A stretch of DNA of 34,134 nt from a virus. The stretch lies in the IMG/VR virus record IMGVR_UViG_3300044695_002636, positions 1 through 34,134 of that record. The stretch is one strand, 5' to 3'. Both the position numbers and the translations under genes were made by a program. This document shows positions 619-31,480 of the stretch, piece by piece. Under the pieces are notes generated by a model. It saw nothing but the letters and a program-made list of their open reading frames with translations. It was not told where the DNA came from and did no database searches. Within the stretch, counting starts at the first letter, position 1, and each line of letters begins with the position of its first letter.

Positions 619-909
619 CTATTTTCTCATCATTTTCTGCTGTTGCTGTTGTGCGGCTTGTAAATCTTTTTGGTACATGGACTTTTCAAAGTCGTGGAGT
701 AGAATGTCGTAAATCAAAGTCGCCTGCATATTTGTGACTTCTTCAATAGTCTTGCCCCATCTGTCCATCATGGCGAATATAGTTGCTTTCGCTCCGAACT
801 TTTTAAACCTGTCCACATTCGCTATCGCCTCCGCTTGACTTGGTTTGTAGTCGTTTAGTCTTTTATAACGCTCAAAGAATTGTTTGAGTGCAGAAAAAAA
901 AAAGCGCAA
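619..909 (-). CDS. Tail-assembly chaperone C-terminal extension (-1 frame, GT-like)
   Basis: This 96-codon frame lies in the -1 frame relative to the upstream 148-aa gene and begins at the T10 run (plus-strand A10 at 894-903). The only in-frame start is a TTG at 909 just before the run, which is a poor start. The simplest reading is that it is reached by -1 slippage on U UUU UUU, giving a fusion of 136 + 91 = 227 aa, like the gpG/gpGT pair of siphoviruses. The product is helical and ends in a Gln-rich tail (QQQQQ) followed by KMMRK. The coding character continues smoothly from the upstream frame. Confidence 0.65.
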   Translation of the reverse strand: MRFFFSALKQFFERYKRLNDYKPSQAEAIANVDRFKKFGAKATIFAMMDRWGKTIEEVTNMQATLIYDILLHDFEKSMYQKDLQAAQQQQQKMMRK

Positions 910-1301
910 ATCGGATTAGCCTCATCCGTAGCCACTTCGCTAAAGTCAATCTCGGTGTATATTTTTGCAATGCCTATCAAAGCGTCCTTCGGTTTGTCAT
1001 GTTGAAGGAGTAAAGACTTCGCCATCTCTAGTTTGCCATAACTTTCACGCCCTATGTCTATCTGTTTGTCCTTTTCCAAATAAGCGTTTGGTGCTTCGTG
1101 CATAAATTGCAATGCCGTAAACAACGCTCCCAATGCTTCGCTGTTTAACTTGTTTAATGTTGTAGTCGGTACACCCAATAAACAACTCGCTTGGTCTAAT
1201 GCTGTTTCATGGTTTAGAAACTCGATGTACTTCTTAAACGGTACATCACCCCAGTTAGTCGGGATGTTTATTATCTCTTCGTTTATTTTCCCTTGTATCA
1301 T
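855..1301 (-). CDS. Tail-assembly chaperone (gpG-like)
   Basis: This 148-aa soluble protein has a pattern I associate with phage tail chaperones: an N-terminal strand, then IPTNWGDVPFKKYIEFL, then helical segments. Its start overlaps the end of the terminase gene by 4 bp. The last 12 codons follow a T10 run; continuing in frame gives a short tail and stop, while a -1 shift enters the 619-909 frame. In siphoviruses such a pair coats the tape measure during tail assembly. Here it lies next to the terminase and far from the tape measure, which is unusual. The family call is by pattern and by the frameshift arrangement, not by a decisive motif. Confidence 0.6.
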   Translation of the reverse strand: MIQGKINEEIINIPTNWGDVPFKKYIEFLNHETALDQASCLLGVPTTTLNKLNSEALGALFTALQFMHEAPNAYLEKDKQIDIGRESYGKLEMAKSLLLQHDKPKDALIGIAKIYTEIDFSEVATDEANPICAFFFLHSNNSLSVIKD

Positions 1302-2389
1302 ATCAAACTGTTTTTTCTTATTCCTGTGCTTGTTTTGTGCTTGGTTAAATACATTGTGCTGTATCGTAGTGGGTCAATGCAATGGTTAAAGGCATCAACT
1401 GGTATCCCTGCTTTTTTATCGTTCCAAATATAGTTAGATAATTCTTTTCGCAAATTGTGCGATGTTGGTGTTATCACTATTTGATAGTCTTGCATCTTGG
1501 TTATCCCTGCGCTCACGCTCCCTGCACCCTTTTCGCATGGCTGAATGTTTAAACCTTTTCGTCTCAAATCGTCTATTAATCTAGGTTCAGCACTATCCGC
1601 AATAATTAACTCATTCGGCTTCGTGGCTTGTTTATTTGCCTCGAATATTTCGTTTGTACCCATACCAACGGTTGAATAAAACTTTTCATCAGCGTAGATA
1701 ATCTTTTTCTTTTCGTCAACCGCCACTTTGACTAAGGTTGTCGGGTCAACACTAAAGCCATAATCTTGTCCGTAAACGTATGGGAGTGAATTATCAAACT
1801 CGCCATGCGTCCAATTCGTGAAGATTGCACCTTGACGGTTTGCACGTTCACCACTTCCGTAAATTGTCCACCAATACTGATTTGACTTTCGGCTTTCGAT
1901 GTCCTCAATCTGCGCTTGTGTTAAATATGGATTGTCTTTGTAAGTGGTTATTAGCGGTGGATATTTTTCGATGTACTGGTCGAGCCAATGTTCCAAACCT
2001 AGTGCAGGGTTATAATCGCAAATAATTCTATGCCTTGTTCGTGGGAATAGTTGGTCAATCGTTTCTTGTGGGAACTGGTGCGCCTCGTTTATCCAAATGA
2101 AGTCACGGCTGCGTCCGTGTATTTTTGCAGGAGTGTCGGCTCCGTAGTAGCTTATTATATTGCCATGTAGATTATAATAGTGTTCGCTTTTATTATGGTG
2201 CAAATCATTATACACCCCACACTCAATTAGAACGTCTTTAAAGTCTTTCCAAGCCGTTGCCCTTAATGCTGTAAAGGTATCACGAACTATATCTATATCA
2301 AGCCCTGTGTAGTTCTCACATAGCCAAATGATGTAATAAATAACTGAGTAACTTTTCCCCGACCTTGTGCCACCTTGTAACAAGGTCAC
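1298..2389 (-). CDS. terL: Terminase large subunit
   Basis: This is the packaging motor ATPase/nuclease. With the GTG start at 2389 the protein is 363 aa, and the Walker A GGTRSGKS falls at residues 6-13, leaving almost no N-terminus. Walker B with catalytic Glu is FIWINE (97-102). The RNase H-like nuclease shows GQDYGF, IIADSAEP and FNHCIDP, supplying the expected acidic residues. An ATG at 2445 in another frame encodes MKNSNPNFRFLKKK and meets this frame at an A9 run (2405-2413); a -1 shift there gives a 382-aa protein with a normal basic N-terminus. Small terminase lies directly upstream. Confidence 0.93.
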   Translation of the reverse strand: MTLLQGGTRSGKSYSVIYYIIWLCENYTGLDIDIVRDTFTALRATAWKDFKDVLIECGVYNDLHHNKSEHYYNLHGNIISYYGADTPAKIHGRSRDFIWINEAHQFPQETIDQLFPRTRHRIICDYNPALGLEHWLDQYIEKYPPLITTYKDNPYLTQAQIEDIESRKSNQYWWTIYGSGERANRQGAIFTNWTHGEFDNSLPYVYGQDYGFSVDPTTLVKVAVDEKKKIIYADEKFYSTVGMGTNEIFEANKQATKPNELIIADSAEPRLIDDLRRKGLNIQPCEKGAGSVSAGITKMQDYQIVITPTSHNLRKELSNYIWNDKKAGIPVDAFNHCIDPLRYSTMYLTKHKTSTGIRKNSLI

Positions 2390-2434
2390 ACGTTGCGACT
2401 TAACTTTTTTTTTAAAAAGCGAAAGTTTGGATTA

Positions 2435-2734
2435 CTATTCTTCATCTTCCTCGTTTAGCCATTCGGGTAAATTCTTCTTTGAAACAGAAACGTCCATTGT
2501 TTGCTTTGCTTTGCCGTATGCTCGGTCTAATAGGACTTCGGCTGCCCTTACATCGCCTTTACTAGCTTTCGCCCTTAACGCCTTTAAAATAGCCTCCCCT
2601 GCCGTTATGCCGTCTTTTTCTTCGCCTAATACATCAGCCAATAGCTTATCCAACTCGGGTAGCTTTTTAGGTCTGCCGTTTGGGTTTAGCGTTTCGCCTT
2701 TCTTCATTTTACGTCCATCATGCGGAAATGCCAT
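2435..2734 (-). CDS. terS: Putative terminase small subunit
   Basis: This 99-aa basic protein carries a NPNGRPKK motif near the N-terminus, as in DUF5681-type and terminase small subunit-like phage proteins, followed by helices and an acidic C-terminus (NEEDEE). It lies immediately upstream of the large subunit, whose alternative ATG overlaps its 3' end, the usual TerS-TerL order. The start overlaps the methyltransferase stop by 17 bp. The protein would bind DNA and recruit the packaging motor. The role is inferred mainly from position and motif; I see no classic HTH. Confidence 0.65.
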   Translation of the reverse strand: MAFPHDGRKMKKGETLNPNGRPKKLPELDKLLADVLGEEKDGITAGEAILKALRAKASKGDVRAAEVLLDRAYGKAKQTMDVSVSKKNLPEWLNEEDEE

Positions 2735-3785
2735 ACGTCTGTTTTTTGTCTGTTATTTTATCCAACCATTGAATTTTAATCTGATTTGCTATTTGTGCAG
2801 TCATTACAGGCGGCACACTCATTCCAATTAAATACCCTGCTTTTACATTTTGAAAATTATAATCAAGTGGGTATGTTCCAACTATACATGCTTCAAACTT
2901 ATTAAACTTACGTGGCTTTGTAGGATGTACTATGCTTGCTGTGCTTCCTTGTGAAATTCCTGTTGTTATTGTAGGACAAACTTCATTTTCTTTTATTTTT
3001 ACTAATTGAAAATACTTCTTTGAACTTTCGCCTTGTTTTATATTTGGATATTCTCTGCCTAAACAATTTGTTCCTAATTCATTTTCGCTAATATTCCAAA
3101 ACTCAAATGTCGCTTCTTTAAAAGTTATTGCATCCTCATTAAATTCTAATTTCAATTTAGGCAATTTCAAATCCTTTCTTTGACAAATAAAGAAAACCCT
3201 TTCACGCTTTTGTGGAACGCCCATAGAAGCCGCATTAAGTAAAAACAACTGAACATTGTAACCAGCTTCGTTAAATGCTTTAAATATTTTTTTTACATAA
3301 ATTTTTGCGTTGCCTTGTATTAATCCTTTTACATTTTCAGCCAATACTATTTTAGGCTGCAACTTTTTTGCAAGTGCTATGTATTCAAAAAACAAATCGT
3401 CTAAAACTTGTTCGGCTTGTCCCTCTTTAAATACTTTCTTTTTGCCCCAATCTTTTTCACGATTTCCAGCCATACTAAATGAAGAACAAGGTGGTGAACC
3501 GTCTAATAAATCCAAATTGTATAATTCATCTGGAATATCGGAACGCTTTACAAAGTGCCTAATATCCTCTAAAAATAAATGCTTTGGTTTGTGGTTTAAC
3601 TGATAAACCTTTGCGATTTTAGGGTCAATTTCAACCCCTCCTAAATGATTAAACCCTGCTAATTTGTAACCCATTGTAGAACCACCACCACAAATAAAAG
3701 TACCAAAAACATTATAATCGTTTTTGGTTATTCCTTTGGCTGGATAGCCATCAGATAAATTCCATTTATAGGGAAACAAGTGCAT
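2718..3785 (-). CDS. DNA (cytosine-5) methyltransferase
   Basis: This 355-aa enzyme transfers a methyl group from S-adenosylmethionine to C5 of cytosine in DNA. The conserved motifs appear in order: motif I FICGGGST (30-37, SAM binding), motif IV SPPCSSFS (97-104, catalytic Cys100), motif VI ENV (150-152), motif VIII QKRER (192-196), and the C-terminal motif X GYLIGMSVPP. The target recognition region lies between VIII and IX, and the sequence recognised cannot be read from it. No cognate restriction endonuclease gene is recognisable nearby, so it is probably an orphan that protects phage DNA from host restriction. It overlaps the ParB-like gene by 20 bp. Confidence 0.95.
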   Translation of the reverse strand: MHLFPYKWNLSDGYPAKGITKNDYNVFGTFICGGGSTMGYKLAGFNHLGGVEIDPKIAKVYQLNHKPKHLFLEDIRHFVKRSDIPDELYNLDLLDGSPPCSSFSMAGNREKDWGKKKVFKEGQAEQVLDDLFFEYIALAKKLQPKIVLAENVKGLIQGNAKIYVKKIFKAFNEAGYNVQLFLLNAASMGVPQKRERVFFICQRKDLKLPKLKLEFNEDAITFKEATFEFWNISENELGTNCLGREYPNIKQGESSKKYFQLVKIKENEVCPTITTGISQGSTASIVHPTKPRKFNKFEACIVGTYPLDYNFQNVKAGYLIGMSVPPVMTAQIANQIKIQWLDKITDKKQTYGISA

Positions 3786-6427: not shown

Positions 6428-7635
6428 TTCTTGAAGGTCTGCAGGACAAAGTCCTTTTTTTTAGATACTGCTTTATAAATCTGCCACTCAATCCCATCTT
6501 TAGCAAACACCCAAAATATATCACTTTGCTTTCGGTTTATAGTTGTCATTCTATCTCTCGATTGCCAGTAGCTAATCGCACTAAAATCAATATTATAATA
6601 AACTAAAGCCTCCGCACTTGACAAATTAATGCCTTCACGTCCACTTATTATTTGCAAAGCTATGGTTTTATTTGAATTATTGAACTCTTCGATGTTGTCG
6701 GTAACGTCAAAATGCTTTTTAATAGCGTCCAATTCAGCAATAAATTTGTAGAATATAGCTATTTTTTTACCTGCAAACCTTTGTTTTATTGCCACTGCTT
6801 TGCTGTCGTCAAAGTCTATTCGATTGGCGTCCTCAAACTTCACCGTTCCGCTATACATTTGATGAACCTTTTGCATTAACTTGACCGATGTGTCAGCTAA
6901 AACAACTCCGCTTTTACCCTCGATAATCAAATCCTTACTTAGTCGGTCAATAATTGAATAGGTTGACGGCTTCATTTCTACGGTCATGAAGTGTTCGTTT
7001 ATTTCGCTCACAAATCCTGCTTCTTTTTGCGTATAGGTCAACATTATAGGGTCGATGTACTTTATAACCTTTTCGTAGCTAACCACGCTGTAATCGTTTG
7101 ATGTGCCGTATGAAGTGTATTTTAGTTTGATAGTGCCGAAATCATTATGCCATTTATAGAAATTCGCATAGTTTCTAAAAGGTGAATAGTTTGAAACAAA
7201 TAGTTGGTGGAAGATTTGAGCGTTGCTTTCGGGTAGTAGCGTTCCTGTCATTAAAATAACCTTGCAACCGTTTGCACATATTCGCTTCGCTTGTTTTGTT
7301 CTGATGCTAGGTTTCGGGAATGCTGCCAAACTATGGCTTTCGTCAAAGATTACTAGGTCGTAAGTCGATTTGTGTTTATGAAGTTGCTCGTAGTTAATTA
7401 TCGTAATCGGATACGTATAACCTGCTGTGGCGTAATCTTTCTCAATACTGCTTATGGCTTTTAGCTTAGTTACAAATAAAACATTTGAGTAGTTACTGCC
7501 TATTGATAGTGCGATGTGGCTCTTTCCTGTCCTCACTTCATAATTAAGTATCAACAAGCCTTTAGCCTTTAATATTTCGCCACCTTTAGTGACGGCTTCT
7601 AATTGATAATCTCTAAGGGAAAATGTGCTTTGCAT
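6397..7635 (-). CDS. SNF2/DEAD-like superfamily 2 helicase
   Basis: This 412-aa protein opens with a Q-like element (LRDYQLEAV), then Walker A VRTGKSH (34-40), DESH box (98-101), motif III MTGTLLPES, and in the second RecA-like domain ISGREGINL and a motif VI region around YWQSRDRM. These mark a SNF2-like translocase or helicase acting on DNA. An A8 run near the 3' end stays in frame (SKKKDF). It is flanked by the VRR nuclease and a small unknown gene. In phages of this kind, helicase plus VRR nuclease pairs process replication forks. Confidence 0.9.
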   Translation of the reverse strand: MQSTFSLRDYQLEAVTKGGEILKAKGLLILNYEVRTGKSHIALSIGSNYSNVLFVTKLKAISSIEKDYATAGYTYPITIINYEQLHKHKSTYDLVIFDESHSLAAFPKPSIRTKQAKRICANGCKVILMTGTLLPESNAQIFHQLFVSNYSPFRNYANFYKWHNDFGTIKLKYTSYGTSNDYSVVSYEKVIKYIDPIMLTYTQKEAGFVSEINEHFMTVEMKPSTYSIIDRLSKDLIIEGKSGVVLADTSVKLMQKVHQMYSGTVKFEDANRIDFDDSKAVAIKQRFAGKKIAIFYKFIAELDAIKKHFDVTDNIEEFNNSNKTIALQIISGREGINLSSAEALVYYNIDFSAISYWQSRDRMTTINRKQSDIFWVFAKDGIEWQIYKAVSKKKDFVLQTFKKWQVSTKPKS

Positions 7636-14679: not shown

Positions 14680-14782
14680 TTTTGAATAAAAAAACATTTT
14701 CCAAACTTTTTTTAAACTTTTTTTTTAGCAAAAAGCAATTACACAATGAAAAACCATTAAAAAAATACCCTAAAAAAAATAA
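14680..14782. other. AT-rich gap between lysis and early genes
   Basis: This stretch between the last lysis gene and the early promoter is rich in long A and T runs (T7, T9, A7, A8). It has only a weak AATGG/CCATT stem (4-5 bp), so transcription end from the lysis genes here is possible but not well supported. No gene seen. Confidence 0.4.
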
Positions 14783-19902: not shown

Positions 19903-21025
19903 TTGGCATATTTATTTGAGTGTTAACAATACCATACTCGCTCAAAGTCCAATCTATACTACTGCCGTACATTGTAGCCATTGTTTCTTGAATTAACCCC
20001 TGCACTGGTTTAACCGCTTCTCTTAATTCTTTTCGTGCTTGTTCTATTGCGTTTGTGTTTCCTAAAACTGCTGCTTCGCTGTAACCTAGTAACACTGGAT
20101 GAACGCCAAATAAACGGCAAATAGAACGCTCTATAATATCACGCTTCGTGTTTGATGCTTCTAGTATTGGCTTCGGGTCGGTTGCTGTGTACGTTGGAGC
20201 TTGTTCGGGTGTTTCAACAAAGTGCGCTAAAACTCCGAAACGTGAAGTCAATCCATCTTTATTTTTCTGTAAGCCTGTGAACTGCGTCATTGCTTCTTCT
20301 ACACGCTGACGGTCTGTTAATCCATCTTCGCCTTCCGTTGTTTCATTTACTCCGCTAAAAGTCATGATACCACCCAAAACAAAGCCATTCAATACGGCTT
20401 CATAATCCATTTTACTCAACTCACTTGACGTTTTTAAATCTTCAAATGCGGCTAAATAATCGGGAAGTCCATAATGCCCACTATCAAACGGATTGCCATT
20501 ATAAACATAAAGTATTTCACCACGCCCACCAAAGTGATTGACATTTATATCCATCGCTTCAAATGTAGCTACTTCGCCCTGAAAGTCTTGCAACTCAACC
20601 CACGCATCTCGTCTGTATTTATCCGTTTGGATTGTCGGGTTATAAAACCAAGTCCCATTTATTCCACGTCTAAATTTCTGCAACGGCATCACTTCAGATT
20701 TCCCTACTCTACCGTTACCAAGTCTTGAAACATGGATAACAACCGCATTAAAATACGACCATGAAGTCGCAAATATTCCTACAAATTTATCTGCTGTTTG
20801 CTTTGAGTTTACTTTGAAACTTGATGCAACTGGTGAAACAAAACCATCCGCTTGAATGTACTCAGCGTATTTCTTTGCGGCTTTCTTCGCCACGCCACTA
20901 TTGTTGATTGCCTCAATTAATTCTAAAGGCAAATTGTCATTCCATCCATAACGAAAATATCCATCACCTTTCTTTTCAGTAGTGACTGGCAAAATGTTTT
21001 TGAATGTTCGTGTATGTTTGCTCAT
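19889..21025 (-). CDS. Phage portal protein
   Basis: This 378-aa protein forms the dodecameric ring at the capsid vertex. Its layout fits small portals: FRYGWNDNLPLELIEAINNS near the N-terminus, a stem/wing region with NGTWFYNP and GRGEILYVYNGNPFDSGHYG, then KMDYEAVLNGFVLGGIM, and a C-terminal clip and crown region (RDIIERSICRLFGVHPVLLG). The start at 21025 overlaps the stop of the GT25-like frame by 3 bases, evidence that the frame is translated. Its own promoter lies at 21868-21899. Confidence 0.85.
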   Translation of the reverse strand: MSKHTRTFKNILPVTTEKKGDGYFRYGWNDNLPLELIEAINNSGVAKKAAKKYAEYIQADGFVSPVASSFKVNSKQTADKFVGIFATSWSYFNAVVIHVSRLGNGRVGKSEVMPLQKFRRGINGTWFYNPTIQTDKYRRDAWVELQDFQGEVATFEAMDINVNHFGGRGEILYVYNGNPFDSGHYGLPDYLAAFEDLKTSSELSKMDYEAVLNGFVLGGIMTFSGVNETTEGEDGLTDRQRVEEAMTQFTGLQKNKDGLTSRFGVLAHFVETPEQAPTYTATDPKPILEASNTKRDIIERSICRLFGVHPVLLGYSEAAVLGNTNAIEQARKELREAVKPVQGLIQETMATMYGSSIDWTLSEYGIVNTQINMPNVPE

Positions 21026-21669
21026 TGTATGCCTTTATAATTAACCTCGATTTCTTTGATAGTGCTAAACCCTTTTGGATGTATCACTAACCGTTCGTTT
21101 GGCTTAATGCAAAGGTGCGATTTTTGATAGTCAATATAGTGTCCGTCAACTATTTTTTTAGGACACGAAAGCATTTCAATTAGATTATTGTACGCTCTCT
21201 TGTGTACGATGTACGCAAACGCTCCCCACGTTTGGTTTTGCTGTGTAAAGTATTGATTAAAATAAAAAGGGTTACGCCCAAACGAACCGCCTAAATAAAG
21301 TATATGCCAATCTTTTGGTAACTGGTTTAAATACTTTTCAAACTTAGGTTTAAAATCTTTTACGAAAGTTATATCATCTTCAAAAATAGCGATGCATTCA
21401 TAGCCTCTTTCTTTAGCTAGTTTAATAGCGTTTAAGTGGCTTTGAATACAAGCATATTCATTATTTGTTACACCTTGTATTGGTGAAACTATTTCCTTAC
21501 CATCAACGGCAATTAGTCTTTCGACTTGAAGGGTCTTCCCCTTTTCTTTGGCTGTGGAATAGAAACATCCTCTAGCCTCTTGTTTGGCACTAACGGTAAA
21601 TCGCTCTCGTCTGTCGACACTTCGTTCAAGGTTGATAAAGACGCTGGGAACTGGGATGTTGATAGGCTT
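21022..21669 (-). CDS. GT25-like glycosyltransferase reached by -1 frameshift or non-AUG start
   Basis: This frame, open from 21699 to its TGA at 21024-21022, has no ATG, GTG or TTG before its conserved domain. From the A9 run it reads KPINIPVPSVFINLERSVDR, matching the N-terminal strand of LPS glycosyltransferase family 25, then ERLIAVDGKEI, CIQSHLNAIKLAKERGYE and IFEDDI (nucleotide-sugar/metal site). The domain is about 215 aa, near full length for the family. It could be made as a 275-aa fusion with the 21513-21848 product by -1 slippage on A9 (21668-21676). Overlap with the portal start supports expression. It may add sugar to phage or host surface structures. Confidence 0.7.
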   Translation of the reverse strand, partial: KPINIPVPSVFINLERSVDRRERFTVSAKQEARGCFYSTAKEKGKTLQVERLIAVDGKEIVSPIQGVTNNEYACIQSHLNAIKLAKERGYECIAIFEDDITFVKDFKPKFEKYLNQLPKDWHILYLGGSFGRNPFYFNQYFTQQNQTWGAFAYIVHKRAYNNLIEMLSCPKKIVDGHYIDYQKSHLCIKPNERLVIHPKGFSTIKEIEVNYKGIQ

Positions 21670-21848
21670 TTTTTTTGACCCTTTTCTTCGCCCATAATGT
21701 CAAAGCAATGCGACTTGCCAAACTTACAGCATAAGTTGTAAAGTTCTTCGCTGATTTGCGTTTCTTTAGTGATAGAAACAATTTGCGTTCCTGCTCGGAA
21801 CACGATAGAACCAACGTCTTTTTTGAGTTTAAATTTTTGAGGTATCAT
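21513..21848 (-). CDS. Small portal-proximal protein ending KKRGRPFKSKD
   Basis: This 111-aa protein is the first gene after the promoter at 21868-21899. The N-terminal 60 residues are structured (IVFRAGTQIVSITKETQISEEL), and the C-terminal part is a linker rich in Ser/Pro ending in a basic, AT-hook-like KKRGRP. Small proteins with this kind of tail are common next to portal genes in Bacteroidota phages. From codon 60 on, its sequence overlaps the GT25-like frame for about 157 nt, both frames carrying recognisable content. It may therefore give two products: this one, and a slippage fusion. Confidence 0.65.
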   Translation of the reverse strand: MIPQKFKLKKDVGSIVFRAGTQIVSITKETQISEELYNLCCKFGKSHCFDIMGEEKGQKKSLSTSQFPASLSTLNEVSTDESDLPLVPNKRLEDVSIPQPKKRGRPFKSKD

Positions 21849-21864
21849 ATTTTGATTTTATTGT

Positions 21865-22473
21865 TTACAAATCTACTTTAATTAATTCCACACCGCAAAT
21901 CTCGCCACGTTCCACTATCTTGTAACGTAGGCTGTTTAAGCCGTCAAACGCCCATGTGTGCTGTGTTCTATTCAATCGCTCTTTATTCGCCTTATATTCG
22001 CTTGTAATGGGTTGCTTTTCGTGCTTTAGTGACTTGTATCTATGCAACTCGAATTTAGTGCGGATGTTGTTTAGCTTTGTTCGGGTATATAAGTCATCAT
22101 CTTCGCCACCCCAACCCCAATAATTATTTGAGAAGCCGTTGCAAGTTAGAAACGCCTCCTCTGTAAACGCTGTTACGCCACCAAAACAAGTATCGTAAGG
22201 TACTTTGTAGTTGAACTGCTCACATAAACCGCTAAAGTGAACCGCTCCATCAATAGGTTGCTTGTAATGCGCTAGGCTTTCGGCTAACAAATCCACATCA
22301 TGAAAGCAAACCGTTTTATCATTGCACTCATTAAAGCCTATATTGAGCAACTTACCACGATTAAATAGTTCGTCATTCGCTTGTTCCACTACTAAAATAT
22401 CAAACCCTTTGTAGTGTTCCACAAATTGTTTAAGGTGGTCAAGTCTGTTTCGGTATGGAACTATTAATTTCAT
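21865..22473 (-). CDS. GT7 beta-1,4-galactosyltransferase-like enzyme
   Basis: This 202-aa cytosolic enzyme carries the near-complete signature of the B4GALT (GT7) family: IVPYRNR (4-10), FNRGKLLNIGF (37-47), the metal-binding DVD (59-61) in FHDVDL, FGGV, the sugar-acceptor loop NNYWGWGGEDDD (116-127), the His of KSLKHE (His151), and DGLNSL (177-182). It lacks the stem and membrane anchor of animal enzymes. It should transfer galactose or N-acetylgalactosamine from a UDP donor; the acceptor is unknown. Neighbours are two further sugar-transfer genes. The promoter of the portal operon overlaps its 3' end. Confidence 0.9.
   Translation of the reverse strand: MKLIVPYRNRLDHLKQFVEHYKGFDILVVEQANDELFNRGKLLNIGFNECNDKTVCFHDVDLLAESLAHYKQPIDGAVHFSGLCEQFNYKVPYDTCFGGVTAFTEEAFLTCNGFSNNYWGWGGEDDDLYTRTKLNNIRTKFELHRYKSLKHEKQPITSEYKANKERLNRTQHTWAFDGLNSLRYKIVERGEICGVELIKVDL
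21868..21899 (-). promoter_or_regulatory. Bacteroidota-type promoter for portal operon
   Basis: Minus strand TTTG-N20-TAGATTTG, a full consensus match, lying across the last codons of the GT7 gene. Transcription would begin about 12 nt before the ATG at 21848. Confidence 0.72.
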
Positions 22474-22730
22474 TGGTTATAGAATAAAAAATATTTAGTT
22501 TTATTTTCATCAACCATAAAGCATATTTCTTCTATTTTAAAAATATCTTCAAACCCATCCACCCAAATGTCTTGGTCGATAGTTATGGGAAAATCTAGTT
22601 CTATATCTTTAGTTGCTTCATGATACTCAAAATTCCAATTATTTTTAGTCATAATTTCACTAATTTTATTTTCTTCATCATGTTGCTTAAATAGCCATTC
22701 AATGTCAGTTATTACAAATTGTGCTTTCAT
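22470..22730 (-). CDS. Hypothetical protein, acidic, in sugar cassette
   Basis: This 86-aa acidic protein (FVITDIEWLFKQHDEENKI, then IWVDGFEDIFKIEEICFMVDENKTKYFLFYNQ) overlaps the GT7 start by 4 bp and follows the glycosyltransferase-like gene by 7 nt. It is mixed alpha/beta with a hydrophobic C-terminus. No family is recognised. Its leader is AACCAAACCAATTAAAT, although this also encodes the end of the previous gene. Confidence 0.55.
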   Translation of the reverse strand: MKAQFVITDIEWLFKQHDEENKISEIMTKNNWNFEYHEATKDIELDFPITIDQDIWVDGFEDIFKIEEICFMVDENKTKYFLFYNQ

Positions 22731-22737
22731 ATTATAT

Positions 22738-23385
22738 TTAATTGGTTTGGTTACGGTTAATTATTGCCCACTCTAGGCACTTATCAATTCGCTCGGTCTG
22801 CTTCACGTCTTTGCCATACTCACGACTATACCACGAATGAATGCCAATCGGTTTGTCATTGATGTTTATGACGGTGCTAATCCCATCTGTTGAAGTTATC
22901 TTGGTAAAGTTAGCGTGTTTGAAGTTCAAATGTAGCCAATAAAATAACCCTGCAAACGGTTCATCTACATTGCCATTCTTTTCACACTGGTTTGCGTACT
23001 CATAAACCTTTGAGTTGTCAAATTTTGACAACTTAGTTTTAATCATGTCCACGTTAAATACATTAAAAAACGGATTGACGTGGAAGAATGATTTCTCTCT
23101 GTGGCTAATCACTCCCTTATCGGGCACACCACAATACGCAAAGTCATTTCGTGTCATGTCAGCAATCACTTGGTCAATTAAGTCCTCATTGGTCACAAAG
23201 AAATCTTCGTCAGCGTTTACGATTATGCCGTTGTAGTTTTCAAGTATGTGAAGCAAGTAGGTAAGCGCACCATGAAATCCCGTGAACTGTTGCAACCTTA
23301 CGAAAGTATTGTCATCACGCCATAATGATTTTGATAGGCTGTAAAGTTTATCATTTGCGCTTCTGGTTATGATTGTTTTTTTCAT
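22738..23385 (-). CDS. Putative glycosyltransferase
   Basis: This 215-aa protein has the features of a GT-A type enzyme: an N-terminal strand (MKKTIITRSANDK), a central GIIVNADEDFFV (about 53-64) whose DED can serve as metal-binding acidic triad, and later a FNVDMI/KNGNVDEPFAGLF section resembling an acceptor region, ending with HSWYSREYG. No exact family is named. It lies in a run of surface-sugar genes between tube protein and portal, which supports the call. Confidence 0.6.
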   Translation of the reverse strand: MKKTIITRSANDKLYSLSKSLWRDDNTFVRLQQFTGFHGALTYLLHILENYNGIIVNADEDFFVTNEDLIDQVIADMTRNDFAYCGVPDKGVISHREKSFFHVNPFFNVFNVDMIKTKLSKFDNSKVYEYANQCEKNGNVDEPFAGLFYWLHLNFKHANFTKITSTDGISTVININDKPIGIHSWYSREYGKDVKQTERIDKCLEWAIINRNQTN

Positions 23386-23663
23386 GCAAATATGTTTTTT
23401 ACTTCACCGCTAAATAGTTTGACGCTATGCTCTAATTGCGTTACTCCATGCCCATCTTTCTTATTACAAAATGTATCGAAGTCACAACCGATATACTCCA
23501 TGTCTTTAAAATACCAAACGAACGCCACGCCATTGGAAACTTCATCCGCTTTTATTCGTTCAAAGCGTTTATCCGTAGCCTCGTAAATACTAGGAAAGTG
23601 TTTAAGTGTGGCTAACCTTGTCAAACTTAAAAGCCAATGTCTATACTTTTCGATTTCGCTCAT
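23382..23663 (-). CDS. Hypothetical protein in sugar cassette
   Basis: This 93-aa protein overlaps both neighbours by 4 bp, so it is translated with them. It has conserved-looking aromatic and Cys residues (FVWYFKDMEYIGCDFDTFC) and ends GEVKNIFA. No family recognised. Its place just upstream of the glycosyltransferase-like gene may mean it takes part in sugar donor or acceptor handling, but this is only context. Confidence 0.5.
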   Translation of the reverse strand: MSEIEKYRHWLLSLTRLATLKHFPSIYEATDKRFERIKADEVSNGVAFVWYFKDMEYIGCDFDTFCNKKDGHGVTQLEHSVKLFSGEVKNIFA

Positions 23664-24001
23664 ATCAGTTTTTTGTAAATGTCAATTCTATCTTTTATGA
23701 ACTCGCACAATTCATATTTCTCCTGCGCCTTAAACTCAATCAGTGCTTTAGTCAAAGCGTATTTATTTACCTTTAAAATCTCTGCATCGCTACTATTATA
23801 CTTCGCTATATTAGTCGTGTAATATTTGCGCATGGAAACCATCGCATCAACCAAACATGAACTGCAATTACCTTTTAATTTCTTATTGAAAATTAGTGTA
23901 TAGTAGTATCGGATAGTTACTCCGCTTAAATTGTTGACGCTACCTTTTGAGATTACATTCTCGTTTAACTCATTTAAAAAAGATAGGCTTCTCACTTCCA
24001 T
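23660..24001 (-). CDS. Hypothetical protein with CSSC motif
   Basis: This 113-aa protein is first in the cassette, directly behind its own promoter (TATATTTG 4 nt before the ATG, so probably leaderless). It contains YYTLIFNKKLKGNCSSC, with the CxxC pair and a following helix, a pattern I have seen in small Bacteroidota phage proteins of unknown role; it could bind metal. The rest is helical and basic. Confidence 0.55.
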   Translation of the reverse strand: MEVRSLSFLNELNENVISKGSVNNLSGVTIRYYYTLIFNKKLKGNCSSCLVDAMVSMRKYYTTNIAKYNSSDAEILKVNKYALTKALIEFKAQEKYELCEFIKDRIDIYKKLI

Positions 24002-27165: not shown

Positions 27166-27346
27166 AAAAGACGAAGCAGAAAAGTATAGTAAACAACTCA
27201 AAACGCAGTTCACGCCTTATTGGTGGAAACGCTTAGAAAATCATTGCCAACTTCCGCAGTCAAATACAAGTGTGGCGAAGTTTGTGAGGGAAGCGGCTAT
27301 TGAGAAGTATAATGAAATTTACAACTCCGATAAGTTAACCGACTGA
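27155..27346 (+). CDS. Ribbon-helix-helix-like DNA-binding protein (plus strand)
   Basis: This 63-aa protein reads MASKKDEAEKYSKQLKTQFT and then PYWWKRLENHCQL, with a second helix TSVAKFVREAAIEKYNEIY. A short strand (KQLKTQFT) followed by two helices with the SVAKFVREA pattern fits the RHH (CopG/Arc-like) fold. The ATG at 27155 is preferred over a TTG two codons upstream. It forms an operon with the membrane protein, on the opposite strand to all other genes. Its 3' end overlaps the tape measure stop by 28 bp. It could bind the duplicated box in its own promoter. Confidence 0.68.
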   Translation: MASKKDEAEKYSKQLKTQFTPYWWKRLENHCQLPQSNTSVAKFVREAAIEKYNEIYNSDKLTD

Positions 27347-29553
27347 TTACGGTTGTTCACAAAATTAGTGAACTCGTCATAAACAAGTTTCGGCTGTGGC
27401 ATTTTCGCTATGCTATCGCTAAACATTTTCGCCATTGTATTAGCGTTGTTCACCTCGTTACTCATTGCCCTATCGCTATACCCTCCGTCCGTTGTTGGTA
27501 TGTATCCTGTGGCGAATTTTCTATTGCCTAATTGGAAGTTTGGTCTATTACCAACCGCTAACTCCATCTGCGCTAATACTGGTGCAAATCGCTCCGTAGC
27601 TTTTGCTGTCATTACACTTTCACCTCGTGATAACCTTGCGTCTATGCTGTCGCTCGTTGCTGTTCCTGGTCCATCTAATCCGATTACACCTGTGGCGAAC
27701 TTAGGGGCAGTTGGTGTTGGTGCTTGTTTCAATAAAGCCGTTGCACTTGCTACTGCACCTAAGATAGTAGCGATGGTTGACGCTATAAATATTGGAGTAG
27801 CCACAAATGCACCTGGACCTGTTGCCGTTGCACTTGTTGTAGCACCTGCTATACCTGCCACAATAGATTGAGCAGTACTAATGGCGATTTGAGATAAAGC
27901 TAATAGTTTTTGAAAAGCTACTGCGGCTGCGCCTTGTTCACCAGTTGCGCTAACTAAAGATGAAATAGCATTAGCAAACTGAGAAGCCACTTGAAATTTA
28001 GTTTGTTGTATTCTATCGCTTTCGTCTGCTTCTCTTTGTTGTGCTGCTATACTTGCATCTAATCTTGCTTGTTGTGCGGCTTGACTTTGCTCAAACATTT
28101 TAGCCTCGTCTGCCATTCGCTTTTCATCAGCCTTTACTTTGTCCTCTTGTTGCTTTTTGATTGCTTCGTTATACTCCTCATCAATCTTTAATAAAGCGTC
28201 CTTTTCTTTATTCTTAGTTTCAATTAGCTTATTACTTTCTTCTTTTGTTTCACCGTTTAGCAACTTCTCTATTTCTACTCGTGCCTTTCGTGTTGCAGCT
28301 ATACCATCAGCCGTTTCTTTTTCAACTTTAGCCTCTGCCCTTAGTATTTGTAGCTTTTGTTCACCACTTAAAGTCCGCCCTTTTAATTCCTCGTTTAACG
28401 CTTGTAGTTCAGTCCTTGCTATGCTTACTCGTTTAGCTGCGTTTTCTTCCTCTAATTTTATAATTGTTTCTGCTGCCTTTCTCCTTACCTCGTCTGCCTT
28501 GCCTTTTTCCGCTAACAATATTTTATTATTCTCAATAACAATGTTATTTTTTTCAATAGCTAATTCATTGCGTCCGATAGTTTCGCTCAAGTCATCAAGT
28601 ATCATTGCAGCCTTTGCGCCCTCTTGATATGCTGTTTTAATTTTACTACCTAAACCAACAACGCCAGTACCTAATTGTAACGCTGCATTTGAAGCCGTTT
28701 CTGCCGCCTTTGAAAAGTTACCCTCAAATACTTGTGATATTGCTTCCACAAAGCCGCCTAATGCCTTAAATCTGTTTAGTAAGTTATCTTGTAGAATAGT
28801 ACCTAACTTTTTTATTGTTTCGCCTGGTTTGTCAAATGCGTCTGCAAGAAATCCAAATTGCTTTACACCATCAACAACTAAATCAACTACAACCGAAAAT
28901 ACTTTATTAATACCTGCCATTGCAAACTCTAATTGGTCTGCTACTTCTGCGTTCTTTCCTAGTATTTCTTGTAGTGCCGTAAACAACATTACAACAGCCC
29001 CAATAGGGTTTGCATTCATCACTGCATTAACCCCTGCTTGTGCTGTTTGAAAGCCTTTTAATCCTGGCACAATGCTTGTCAGTTTCCCAGTTAACTCATC
29101 AAACCCTTGACCGTAATTGCCCACATTGCGTGATGTGTTACCTAGTGCCGCCTCTTGTTCTTTTAGTACCGTATTTAATTGTTTAGCGGTTGCGATTTGC
29201 TCTTTAGTTGGCTTCGCTGTTTGCAAAAGTTGATTGTATAAAGCGTTGTAGGCTTTACGGTTTTCTGCTATGCTGTTTTCTTGTGCCTTCCCTGCTTTGA
29301 TGTTATCTTCAGTAGCTTTGGTCATTATCTTTGTCGCACTAGTTTGTTGCACTAAAACATTGTTTAACGCCCGTTGCTCTTTCTCTAATGCCTTTACTTC
29401 CGCATTTTGTGCAATGTATTCATTGGTCTGTTGCTTCCCTGCATCAGTCAACTCCTTTAGCTTTGTTTTAGACTGGGTCAACAAATCGTTAACGTCCTGC
29501 AATGCCGAAACGGTTGGAGTGGTGTCAATCTTAAATATTAGTGTATCTGCCAT
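27319..29553 (-). CDS. Tail tape measure protein
   Basis: This 744-aa protein sets tail length. It has long coiled-coil regions at 20-130 and 340-530, a hydrophobic middle (AISTAQSIVAGIAGATTSAT, then FIASTIATILGAVASATALL near 585-630) and the common LSRGESVMTAKATERF motif of tape measures, followed by a Gly/Asn-rich end. At the usual 1.5 angstrom per residue it would give a tail of roughly 110 nm. In reading direction it lies after the tail hub gene, while usually it comes before. Confidence 0.9.
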   Translation of the reverse strand: MADTLIFKIDTTPTVSALQDVNDLLTQSKTKLKELTDAGKQQTNEYIAQNAEVKALEKEQRALNNVLVQQTSATKIMTKATEDNIKAGKAQENSIAENRKAYNALYNQLLQTAKPTKEQIATAKQLNTVLKEQEAALGNTSRNVGNYGQGFDELTGKLTSIVPGLKGFQTAQAGVNAVMNANPIGAVVMLFTALQEILGKNAEVADQLEFAMAGINKVFSVVVDLVVDGVKQFGFLADAFDKPGETIKKLGTILQDNLLNRFKALGGFVEAISQVFEGNFSKAAETASNAALQLGTGVVGLGSKIKTAYQEGAKAAMILDDLSETIGRNELAIEKNNIVIENNKILLAEKGKADEVRRKAAETIIKLEEENAAKRVSIARTELQALNEELKGRTLSGEQKLQILRAEAKVEKETADGIAATRKARVEIEKLLNGETKEESNKLIETKNKEKDALLKIDEEYNEAIKKQQEDKVKADEKRMADEAKMFEQSQAAQQARLDASIAAQQREADESDRIQQTKFQVASQFANAISSLVSATGEQGAAAVAFQKLLALSQIAISTAQSIVAGIAGATTSATATGPGAFVATPIFIASTIATILGAVASATALLKQAPTPTAPKFATGVIGLDGPGTATSDSIDARLSRGESVMTAKATERFAPVLAQMELAVGNRPNFQLGNRKFATGYIPTTDGGYSDRAMSNEVNNANTMAKMFSDSIAKMPQPKLVYDEFTNFVNNRNQSVNLSEL

Positions 29554-29554
29554 C

Positions 29555-31480
29555 TTAATAAAGTTTTACAAGTTCAACCAATGTACTCACGTTCCTGTTC
29601 GGGTTATAACCGCTTATCTTGCTCACATAAAAATAACTATTGAAGTATTCTATATAAATAGGAATAGTCAAGTCAAGTTGATTAATGTCTGAGGCGTTTA
29701 ACCGTAGTAAGCAAGTGACTATCTTAGCCTTATCCAAAACATCAATAAAAGACTGGTAAAAAGTCGGGATTAAATTATCATCAAACCCTAAATTGATTTC
29801 ACCGCTCTTTTGAAAGTGAGTTAAAAGAATGTCCGTTGTCTGTGCGCTGTTACTTGTGCCGTCTGTGTAGGTAAACGCCACATCATTAAACTTGGCGAAT
29901 AGAATACGCTGGTCTATTTCATCTTTAAACGTGCCGTCATCATTAAATATTTGCAAGTCTGCAACAACTAAACCACCTGTTAATGCTTGTGTACTTGCGC
30001 TAAAATCAATCTCAATTAAATCTTGTTCGTCATCTAAATTCTGGTCATCTAAAGTTATTACTCCATTTGCGAATGTTGCGTTTTGGTTAGGGTCGAACAC
30101 ACTATCATATTGCCACGTGCAAAGATTTCTTTGAGCGTAGCCATCAACCGCAAATGTTATCTGTGGCGTATCGGTTAGGTCTAACTTATTTGACCAATCT
30201 AAAGCGTTTGGAATATTATCATTTAGCTTTTCAAACGGTACTATGTTAACTACTTTGTTTACTTCATCAACTTGAATAAGTGAGCAAGTCAACTTCAAAT
30301 AAGTAGCTAGTAATTCGCTTTGTTTTGTATCGGGTAGTAAACTATTGACGGTTGTAAATTGACGGCTTATAAAGTTAACTGACGGTAAAGCATTTACTTC
30401 AGTTGGAGTAACTACAACCGTATCTGTAATGGTTAATGAAGCATCAGCAACGGTGTAAATTGCAGCCGTTAAAAATGAAATGGTAATTGCGTTTGCATCA
30501 TCTGTTAATGCTGACGGTGTAAGTGTTGCCGTTCCCGAATAAGTAAAAGTGTTTACGCCTACTACCACATCAGCCGCTAATCTTGTATCGGATATGCCTA
30601 TTGAATTAACGTCTATCGTAATATTGCCTACGATTGTAACCGTTATATTTATTACAATGTTATAAGTTACGGTTATTATATCATTTAGAATAACGCTACC
30701 ATCCCAAGTTGCTATTGAACTAGGGTCAAAATAAATATCGCTGCCACTAATTTTAGTAAGCATCATTATTTTATTTGCTGCTGCTGGTGCTGGTAAAACC
30801 AAAGTATTACCAAAGAACTCGCAGTTATATTTATCACCGTTAAAATCTCTCAACCACTCTTTACACAACGGTAAAACCATTAACTGATTAGGATAACCGT
30901 ATTTTAATTTTGTTTCGTTGTTTAGGTTGTAACCTTGTGAAGCCGCCATTTGTTCTAAAAGAAACTCAATCGAAACGCTTGGTGGCTGGTAAGCAATATT
31001 GCCCAAAGCTATTGCAGTAGGTTGCTCAACATTCAAAGCGATTGAACGTGGCACGTCTAAATCGGTTCTAGTTGCAACGTAGTTAGTCAACGTGTGATAA
31101 TAGTCATAAGCACTAAAATCAATATCAGTTAACTTCCCATCCTTTAAAGCCGCAAAGAAATCACTATTCCCACCGTAAATGTTGACGTTGTAACCTTGTG
31201 AGCTTTCTTTTAGCGTAGCAAATGAAATCTGTTGGTCTATACCATTTGAATAGTAACGTGCTTTTAGCCGTCTGTATGGCTTAGTGCCTATGTTATTTAC
31301 ATCATCGGGATTTTCAAAGATAGCTTTGTTCTTTGCCGTTTTTGGAATGGTGAACTCGGCTGACCTTACTCCACTTCGCTTTTCAATTTCGCCAATCTTT
31401 GCAATGGCGTATTCAATACTAATATCCGCATCAGTAGGTAAATCAACTAATTTATCTTCGATGTATAACTCACTAGCCAT
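29555..31480 (-). CDS. Tail hub/baseplate protein
   Basis: This 641-aa protein ends 1 nt before the tape measure start. The N-terminal 250 residues (ISIEYAIAKIGEIEKRSG, SAEFTIPKTAKNKAIFENP) resemble hub-type tail proteins; the region 270-370 is unusually rich in Thr/Val/Ile with strand repeats (TYNIVINITVTIVGNITID), suggesting an inserted Ig-like or fibre-like module. The C-terminal third is again alpha/beta. It is probably the structural base of the tail tip. The overlap with the preceding gene is 8 bp. Confidence 0.65.
   Translation of the reverse strand: MASELYIEDKLVDLPTDADISIEYAIAKIGEIEKRSGVRSAEFTIPKTAKNKAIFENPDDVNNIGTKPYRRLKARYYSNGIDQQISFATLKESSQGYNVNIYGGNSDFFAALKDGKLTDIDFSAYDYYHTLTNYVATRTDLDVPRSIALNVEQPTAIALGNIAYQPPSVSIEFLLEQMAASQGYNLNNETKLKYGYPNQLMVLPLCKEWLRDFNGDKYNCEFFGNTLVLPAPAAANKIMMLTKISGSDIYFDPSSIATWDGSVILNDIITVTYNIVINITVTIVGNITIDVNSIGISDTRLAADVVVGVNTFTYSGTATLTPSALTDDANAITISFLTAAIYTVADASLTITDTVVVTPTEVNALPSVNFISRQFTTVNSLLPDTKQSELLATYLKLTCSLIQVDEVNKVVNIVPFEKLNDNIPNALDWSNKLDLTDTPQITFAVDGYAQRNLCTWQYDSVFDPNQNATFANGVITLDDQNLDDEQDLIEIDFSASTQALTGGLVVADLQIFNDDGTFKDEIDQRILFAKFNDVAFTYTDGTSNSAQTTDILLTHFQKSGEINLGFDDNLIPTFYQSFIDVLDKAKIVTCLLRLNASDINQLDLTIPIYIEYFNSYFYVSKISGYNPNRNVSTLVELVKLY

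Follow-up and report, generated by a model that had tools for sequence, protein, structure and literature searches.

Homopolymer-borne −1 frame switches in the terminase, putative tail-assembly-chaperone and GT25 glycosyltransferase genes of a 34-kb phage

The three coding runs and the genes that they join

The window, that is, the whole stretch of DNA analysed here, is an IMG/VR contig of 34,134 bases, and the related sequences were further IMG/VR contigs and the cultured phages P12024S and P12024L. The first and last 181 nt of the contig (1-181 and 33954-34134) repeat each other with a single mismatch; probably, therefore, two strain variants are joined here in a closed circle. This terminal repeat was also considered as a pointer to the sequencing technology and dropped, as it tells nothing in this respect. 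The family is one of aquatic phages with probable hosts among the Bacteroidota, the hosts being judged only from kinship to flavobacterial and Bacteroides phages. Bacterial genomes searched with the GT25 frame described below gave no relative, and hence neither a host nor a prophage.

On the coding (minus) strand, the window carries three runs of nine or more identical bases inside genes: T10 at 894-903, A9 at 2405-2413 and A9 at 21668-21676. An earlier note on this DNA had given exactly these coordinates, which held on re-examination, and had claimed the same −1 shift at each run. ORF lists, the sequence itself and a frame scan of the window all agree that the frame moves by −1 at all three. 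The 8-base runs at 3287-3294 and 6455-6462, which the note had described as breaking no frame, are indeed both read through without interruption. A fourth run of nine, T9 at 14718-14726, is intergenic (the plus-strand ORF that spans it runs antisense to the gene set), and there are no others in the window; contigs G007 and G008 also contain this intergenic T9. The number of coding runs is ordinary, with 3 observed versus 3.1 expected from synonymous-codon resampling. Their placement is unusual: a −1 switch is possible in roughly 270 of the 32,109 coding nt of the window, and by our own estimate the chance of all three runs landing in such stretches is about 1e-6.

The gene for the terminase large subunit (TerL) starts at ATG 2445 on the minus strand. 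This ATG overlaps the 3′ end of an ORF for a putative small terminase (TerS; 2435-2734, minus strand), a name suggested by its position and by weak PHROG matches of unknown function. From ATG 2445, the 0 frame reads MKNSNPNFRFLKKKLSRNV and then stops (2386-2445), resulting in an unslipped peptide of 19 aa. The A9 run lies 11 codons past the start codon, and a −1 shift there yields MKNSNPNFRFLKKKVKSQRVTLLQGGTRSGK, the start of TerL, after which the −1 frame stays open for 1104 nt (TerL body, 1298-2413, minus strand). Both PF04466 and PF17288 are matched by this frame, placing it among the terminase large subunits. A −1 shift is likewise needed in 19 other contigs, 18 of them at A9 and one (L040) at A10, and in every slip contig the Leu codon preceding the lysines is TTA or CTA, which lengthens the run to 9. 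In 53 related contigs the leader, with its conserved NPNF motif, is in one frame with TerL (for example, MKANPNFDYLHDKINEQRIILLQGGTRSGK), so that the expected slip product is identified by close relatives in which TerL occupies a single frame. Nonsynonymous changes amounted to 0.39 of expectation after the run (−1 frame) and to 0.59 before it (0 frame), the latter value being weakly measured on a short stretch with 16 changes. On the TerL tree, seven slip and 30 in-frame lineages require 6 state changes, 5 of which are forced by well-supported branches. L011 and L012, at about 90% identity the nearest neighbours of the window, have TerL in frame with a different leader, which suggests that the TerS–TerL start region has been swapped between phages by recombination.

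Directly after TerL follows ORF A (855-1301, minus strand; 148 aa), in which the T10 run at 894-903 precedes the stop by 36 nt. A −1 shift at T10 would lead into frame B (619-903, minus strand; ORF 619-909), which is open for 272 nt and would extend the short product at its C-terminus. Nonsynonymous changes are reduced to 0.17 of expectation in the 0 frame upstream of the run and to 0.03 in the −1 frame of B. All close relatives have T10, divergent ones (25-57% identity) have T9 with an equal −1 shift, and at least 30 other contigs have the break, always at T9/T10. An alignment of B proved too diverse to be used for scanning contigs. In L034, L036, L038, L041 and L042, A and B form one 225-aa ORF; they are fused in L040 as well, in a slightly shorter ORF. 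A −1 shift close to the 3′ end that yields an extended form is what is expected of a gpG/gpGT tail-assembly-chaperone pair. The window protein had no PHROG or Pfam match, and the predicted fused A+B form matched no solved structure, only uncharacterised viral models. Nor does the gene lie immediately upstream of the tape measure, the candidate for which (27319-29553) is several genes downstream. Because no known chaperone was matched and the tape measure is not adjacent, we do not assign the protein to gpG/gpGT; the label ‘chaperone’ is putative and describes its architecture only.

The third run joins a 0-frame ORF of 111 aa (21513-21848, minus strand; C-terminus KKRGRPFKSKD) to a −1 frame with a glycosyltransferase family 25 domain (21022-21678, minus strand). 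The latter is open for 643 nt without an ATG of its own and matches PF01755 with 45.9 bits (E 7.8e-12) against a curated cut-off of 24. The earlier note had placed the A9 run before the GT25-like frame. The break is where the note had put it, but the arrangement is not, since the 0 frame continues for 152 nt beyond the run (100-221 nt elsewhere) and overlaps the GT25 frame. Among 12 close sequences, the ratio of observed to expected nonsynonymous changes was 0.32 upstream of the run (0 frame) and 0.26 downstream of the overlap (−1 frame). Within the overlap, only 2 changes were nonsynonymous in both frames versus 9.2 expected; by this depletion the overlap is dual-coded, with constraint on both frames. 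The window and 38 other contigs, whose proteins are as little as 28% identical, all have A9 or A10 where GT25 connects with the ORF upstream of it. According to lineage, the first base of the run falls on position 1, 2 or 3 of a codon. The run of G011 at L116:8609 is likewise a −1 break of this gene. In most lineages the 0-frame protein ends in K-x-GRP-x-K, a motif whose place relative to GT25 varies; the predicted structure of the 111-aa protein is weak (pTM 0.39). The chaperone-like 0 frame of G012 (L118:2755-3524) and G018 (L124:7532-8349) continues for about 65 codons beyond its T9, and this overlap may be dual-coded too.

Adjoining the GT25 gene, the region 21865-23385 contains a GT7-like galactosyltransferase (PF02709; 21865-22473) and a 215-aa protein that resembles another glycosyltransferase and has no Pfam match; structural genes adjoin. 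Together with GT25, the region could possibly be a cassette for glycosylation of the virion or the host surface. In G010 (L114:2082-3875), a GT7-like domain appears to be fused in frame ahead of the small 0-frame domain, and slippage would there yield a protein with two glycosyltransferase domains. In L116, L159, L162 and L174, the 0-frame protein is longer, and its N-terminal part is similar to a small CxxC protein encoded at 23660-24001. The window has the CxxC part and the 0-frame part separately, with glycosyltransferase genes between them.

Frame breaks in related contigs and cultured phages

The structural match of the fused A+B form to a viral model pointed to the cultured Nonlabens phage P12024S. 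Here, T9 occurs at 23578 in the gene that directly follows TerL, and the −1 frame after it is open for 241 nt, its tail end being the annotated gp39. The spacing is identical in P12024L. Both halves of the P12024S/L gene are homologous to their counterparts in G012 and G018, where the run is T9 too, and the G012 homologue matches phrog_166 ‘tail protein’ (E 4e-4). The P12024S record (JQ823122; L232:23136-23830) lists as separate genes, gp38 and gp39, what are two frames of a single slip-joined gene, and it has no annotation for the −1 product. A second P12024S run at 30534 (6H) was rejected as a further break and is an ordinary gene overlap.

Systematic under-calling of homopolymers was one of the two explanations offered by the earlier note, the other being programmed slippage controlling three proteins, and raw data were thought necessary to decide between them. 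If each run had lost one base in sequencing or assembly, the same sign would be seen at all three, as is the case. However, the same breaks are found in dozens of contigs from many samples and in cultured P12024S, and no ‘repaired’ run, longer by one base, occurs among the TerL, chaperone-pair and GT25 contigs compared. Moreover, breaks accompany both A9 and A10 (TerL in L040; GT25 in L141, L142 and L151), and the in-frame relatives have no run instead of a longer one. Runs that lie in frame are read correctly: A9 is in frame in TerL of L081, in G006 (L106:3867), in G005 (L104:13982) and in G023 (L125:8697), and the protease of G011 has an in-frame A10 on the very contig that carries a TerL and a GT25 break. 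The note's rule that every coding run of nine or more marks a frame break is therefore true of the window but not of its relatives. With these in-frame controls, and with breaks that recur in the absence of any longer copy, under-calling cannot be the cause, and we give it next to no credence. The run of G001 at L097:7235 was discarded as a candidate break, being intergenic.

Nor do two biological alternatives fare better. Phase variation, with which glycosyltransferases and homopolymers are typically associated, would mean that replication slippage toggles the genes and that the sampled genomes are simply in the ‘off’ state; yet when on and off tract lengths were both sought among the relatives, all copies were in the −1 state. 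TerL and a tail-assembly protein are, in addition, expected to be essential, and conservation extends to the 0-frame product of the GT25 gene, which leaves phase variation most improbable. Alternatively, TerL and GT25 might begin at non-ATG codons within their own frames, with the upstream frames unrelated to them. The TerL frame of the window does contain a GTG at 2389, but this codon is absent from L006-L009, so that there is no shared start, and the 53 relatives mentioned above keep the NPNF leader in one frame with TerL. Given the loss of GTG together with the conservation of the leader, internal start codons for TerL are rejected. As to GT25, its ATG-less frame is shut by stops just ahead of the run in many relatives, and we consider the internal-start explanation as a whole to be very unlikely indeed.

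Comparison of the sequences has thus shown the frame breaks to be real, conserved and under selection, i.e. a built-in feature of these genes. The original observation is confirmed in a stronger form than first stated, and programmed slippage gains support from dozens of contigs, from the cultured phages (for one gene) and from selection that switches frame at the runs. Comparison sufficed to separate artefact from reality.

RNA polymerase or ribosome as the slipping agent

The three sites are very probably programmed and used. At all of them, an uninterrupted A or T run of at least nine lies at the frame transition, is kept among homologues while the flanks diverge, and joins two frames under purifying selection. 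By the published criterion, transcriptional slippage is taken as functional when a 9A/9T run is conserved in homologues (PMC1088944). Because the homopolymer sites are never shorter than nine, occur in any codon phase and lack an unusual downstream structure, slippage by RNA polymerase rather than the ribosome is favoured, and is probably the main agent. The use of TTA or CTA for Leu at the TerL sites, by which the run reaches nine, speaks for the polymerase as well.

The main rival is −1 frameshifting by the ribosome, in which tRNAs would slip back by one base and pair anew on A AAA AAG, A AAA AAA or T TTT TTT, as in E. coli dnaX. An in-phase heptamer is present in every run, which is automatic, as any run of nine includes an in-phase A AAA AAA or T TTT TTT; the TerL sites include A AAA AAG. 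A ribosomal heptamer needs only 7 bases, yet no 7- or 8-base homopolymer site was found among the independent lineages, all being of 9-10 nt. The runs also show no conserved interruption, and they lie in any codon phase. A search for downstream stimulatory RNA structure at the window sites revealed nothing unusual (z −1.3 to +0.4). In favour of the ribosome, frameshifts in tail-chaperone genes are classically ribosomal (PMC5009743). Furthermore, two distant GT25 relatives, L159 (2423-2429) and L174 (2504-2510), have no homopolymer but C CCA AAC at the frame switch, which is the sole in-phase XXXYYYZ heptamer in the switch region of each and which, in L159, is followed after about 8 nt by a hairpin (z −1.2). 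A single heptamer could be there by chance; the identical heptamer in both makes chance less likely. CCCAAAC in L159 and L174 argues that the ribosome may serve this GT25 step in the wider family, while for the window we hold ribosomal frameshifting to be unlikely, though a rival to be taken seriously.

If RNA polymerase slippage is indeed at work, the polymerase would add a net one base to some transcripts at the A9 and T10 tracts. Slipped terL transcripts would then be translated normally into full-length TerL. As TerL has no other reading and only the slipped product would be useful, the site may act as a throttle that caps the supply of terminase. The chaperone gene would give a short and an extended protein of the tail-chaperone type, in the manner of gpG/gpGT. 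From the GT25 gene, unslipped transcripts would produce the small protein with the basic K-x-GRP-x-K tail, and slipped ones the same N-terminal domain fused to the GT25 glycosyltransferase. It is a speculative and improbable extension of this model that slippage serves as a shared dial, whereby a single trait of the host's RNA polymerase, e.g. its response to nucleotide pools, would jointly set how much packaging motor is made, in what ratio the tail-assembly proteins appear and what share of the small protein carries a glycosyltransferase.

Comparison with known recoding systems

Transcriptional slippage at 9A/9T is known from Thermus thermophilus dnaX, IS elements and Shigella mxiE (PMC1088944, PMC5009743). 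Like these, the window has runs of nine or more A or T at the frame transition, with their length kept in homologues and no stimulator seen. It differs in that a single 34-kb phage carries three sites, among them one near the start of an essential packaging enzyme, and in that its sites are predicted from sequence. Like lambda gpG/gpGT, the chaperone-like pair consists of a short gene that would shift by −1 close to its 3′ end and so have a short and an extended product. Unlike the lambda pair, it uses a T9/T10 homopolymer, lies directly after TerL rather than directly before the tape measure, has no family match and is fused (A+B) in some relatives.

For terminases, one precedent of recoding has been proposed, namely bypassing in Streptomyces phage Hau3 (PMC5009743). 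Both terminases are thought to need recoding; Hau3 would do so by a bypass at UUA, the window by −1 at A9/A10 near the start. GeneTack clusters of frame transitions include conserved ones such as those of phage tail chaperones, and homopolymers of 8 or more were noted there as slippage motifs (PMC3711429); in the main text of that paper the word ‘terminase’ is absent, and no GT25 fusion was seen. Neither a homopolymer-dependent terminase nor a homopolymer-dependent GT25 was found in the open-licence literature. Likewise, we found there no description of a TerL obtainable solely via a slip 11 codons past its start, or of a GT25 made exclusively as a dual-coded extension that another protein gains by slippage. 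Gene callers cut short or overlook all three proteins, as they do in P12024S for its one. The sister phages with in-frame TerL offer a natural comparison of slip versus no slip.

The dnaX gene is served by transcriptional slippage in T. thermophilus and by ribosomal frameshifting in E. coli. Similar alternatives are seen for the −1 switch into GT25, which is made at a homopolymer in most lineages and at CCCAAAC in L159 and L174, although GT25, unlike dnaX, is a dual-coded phage gene. These distant relatives with their ribosomal heptamer thus provide a natural comparison between polymerase and ribosome.
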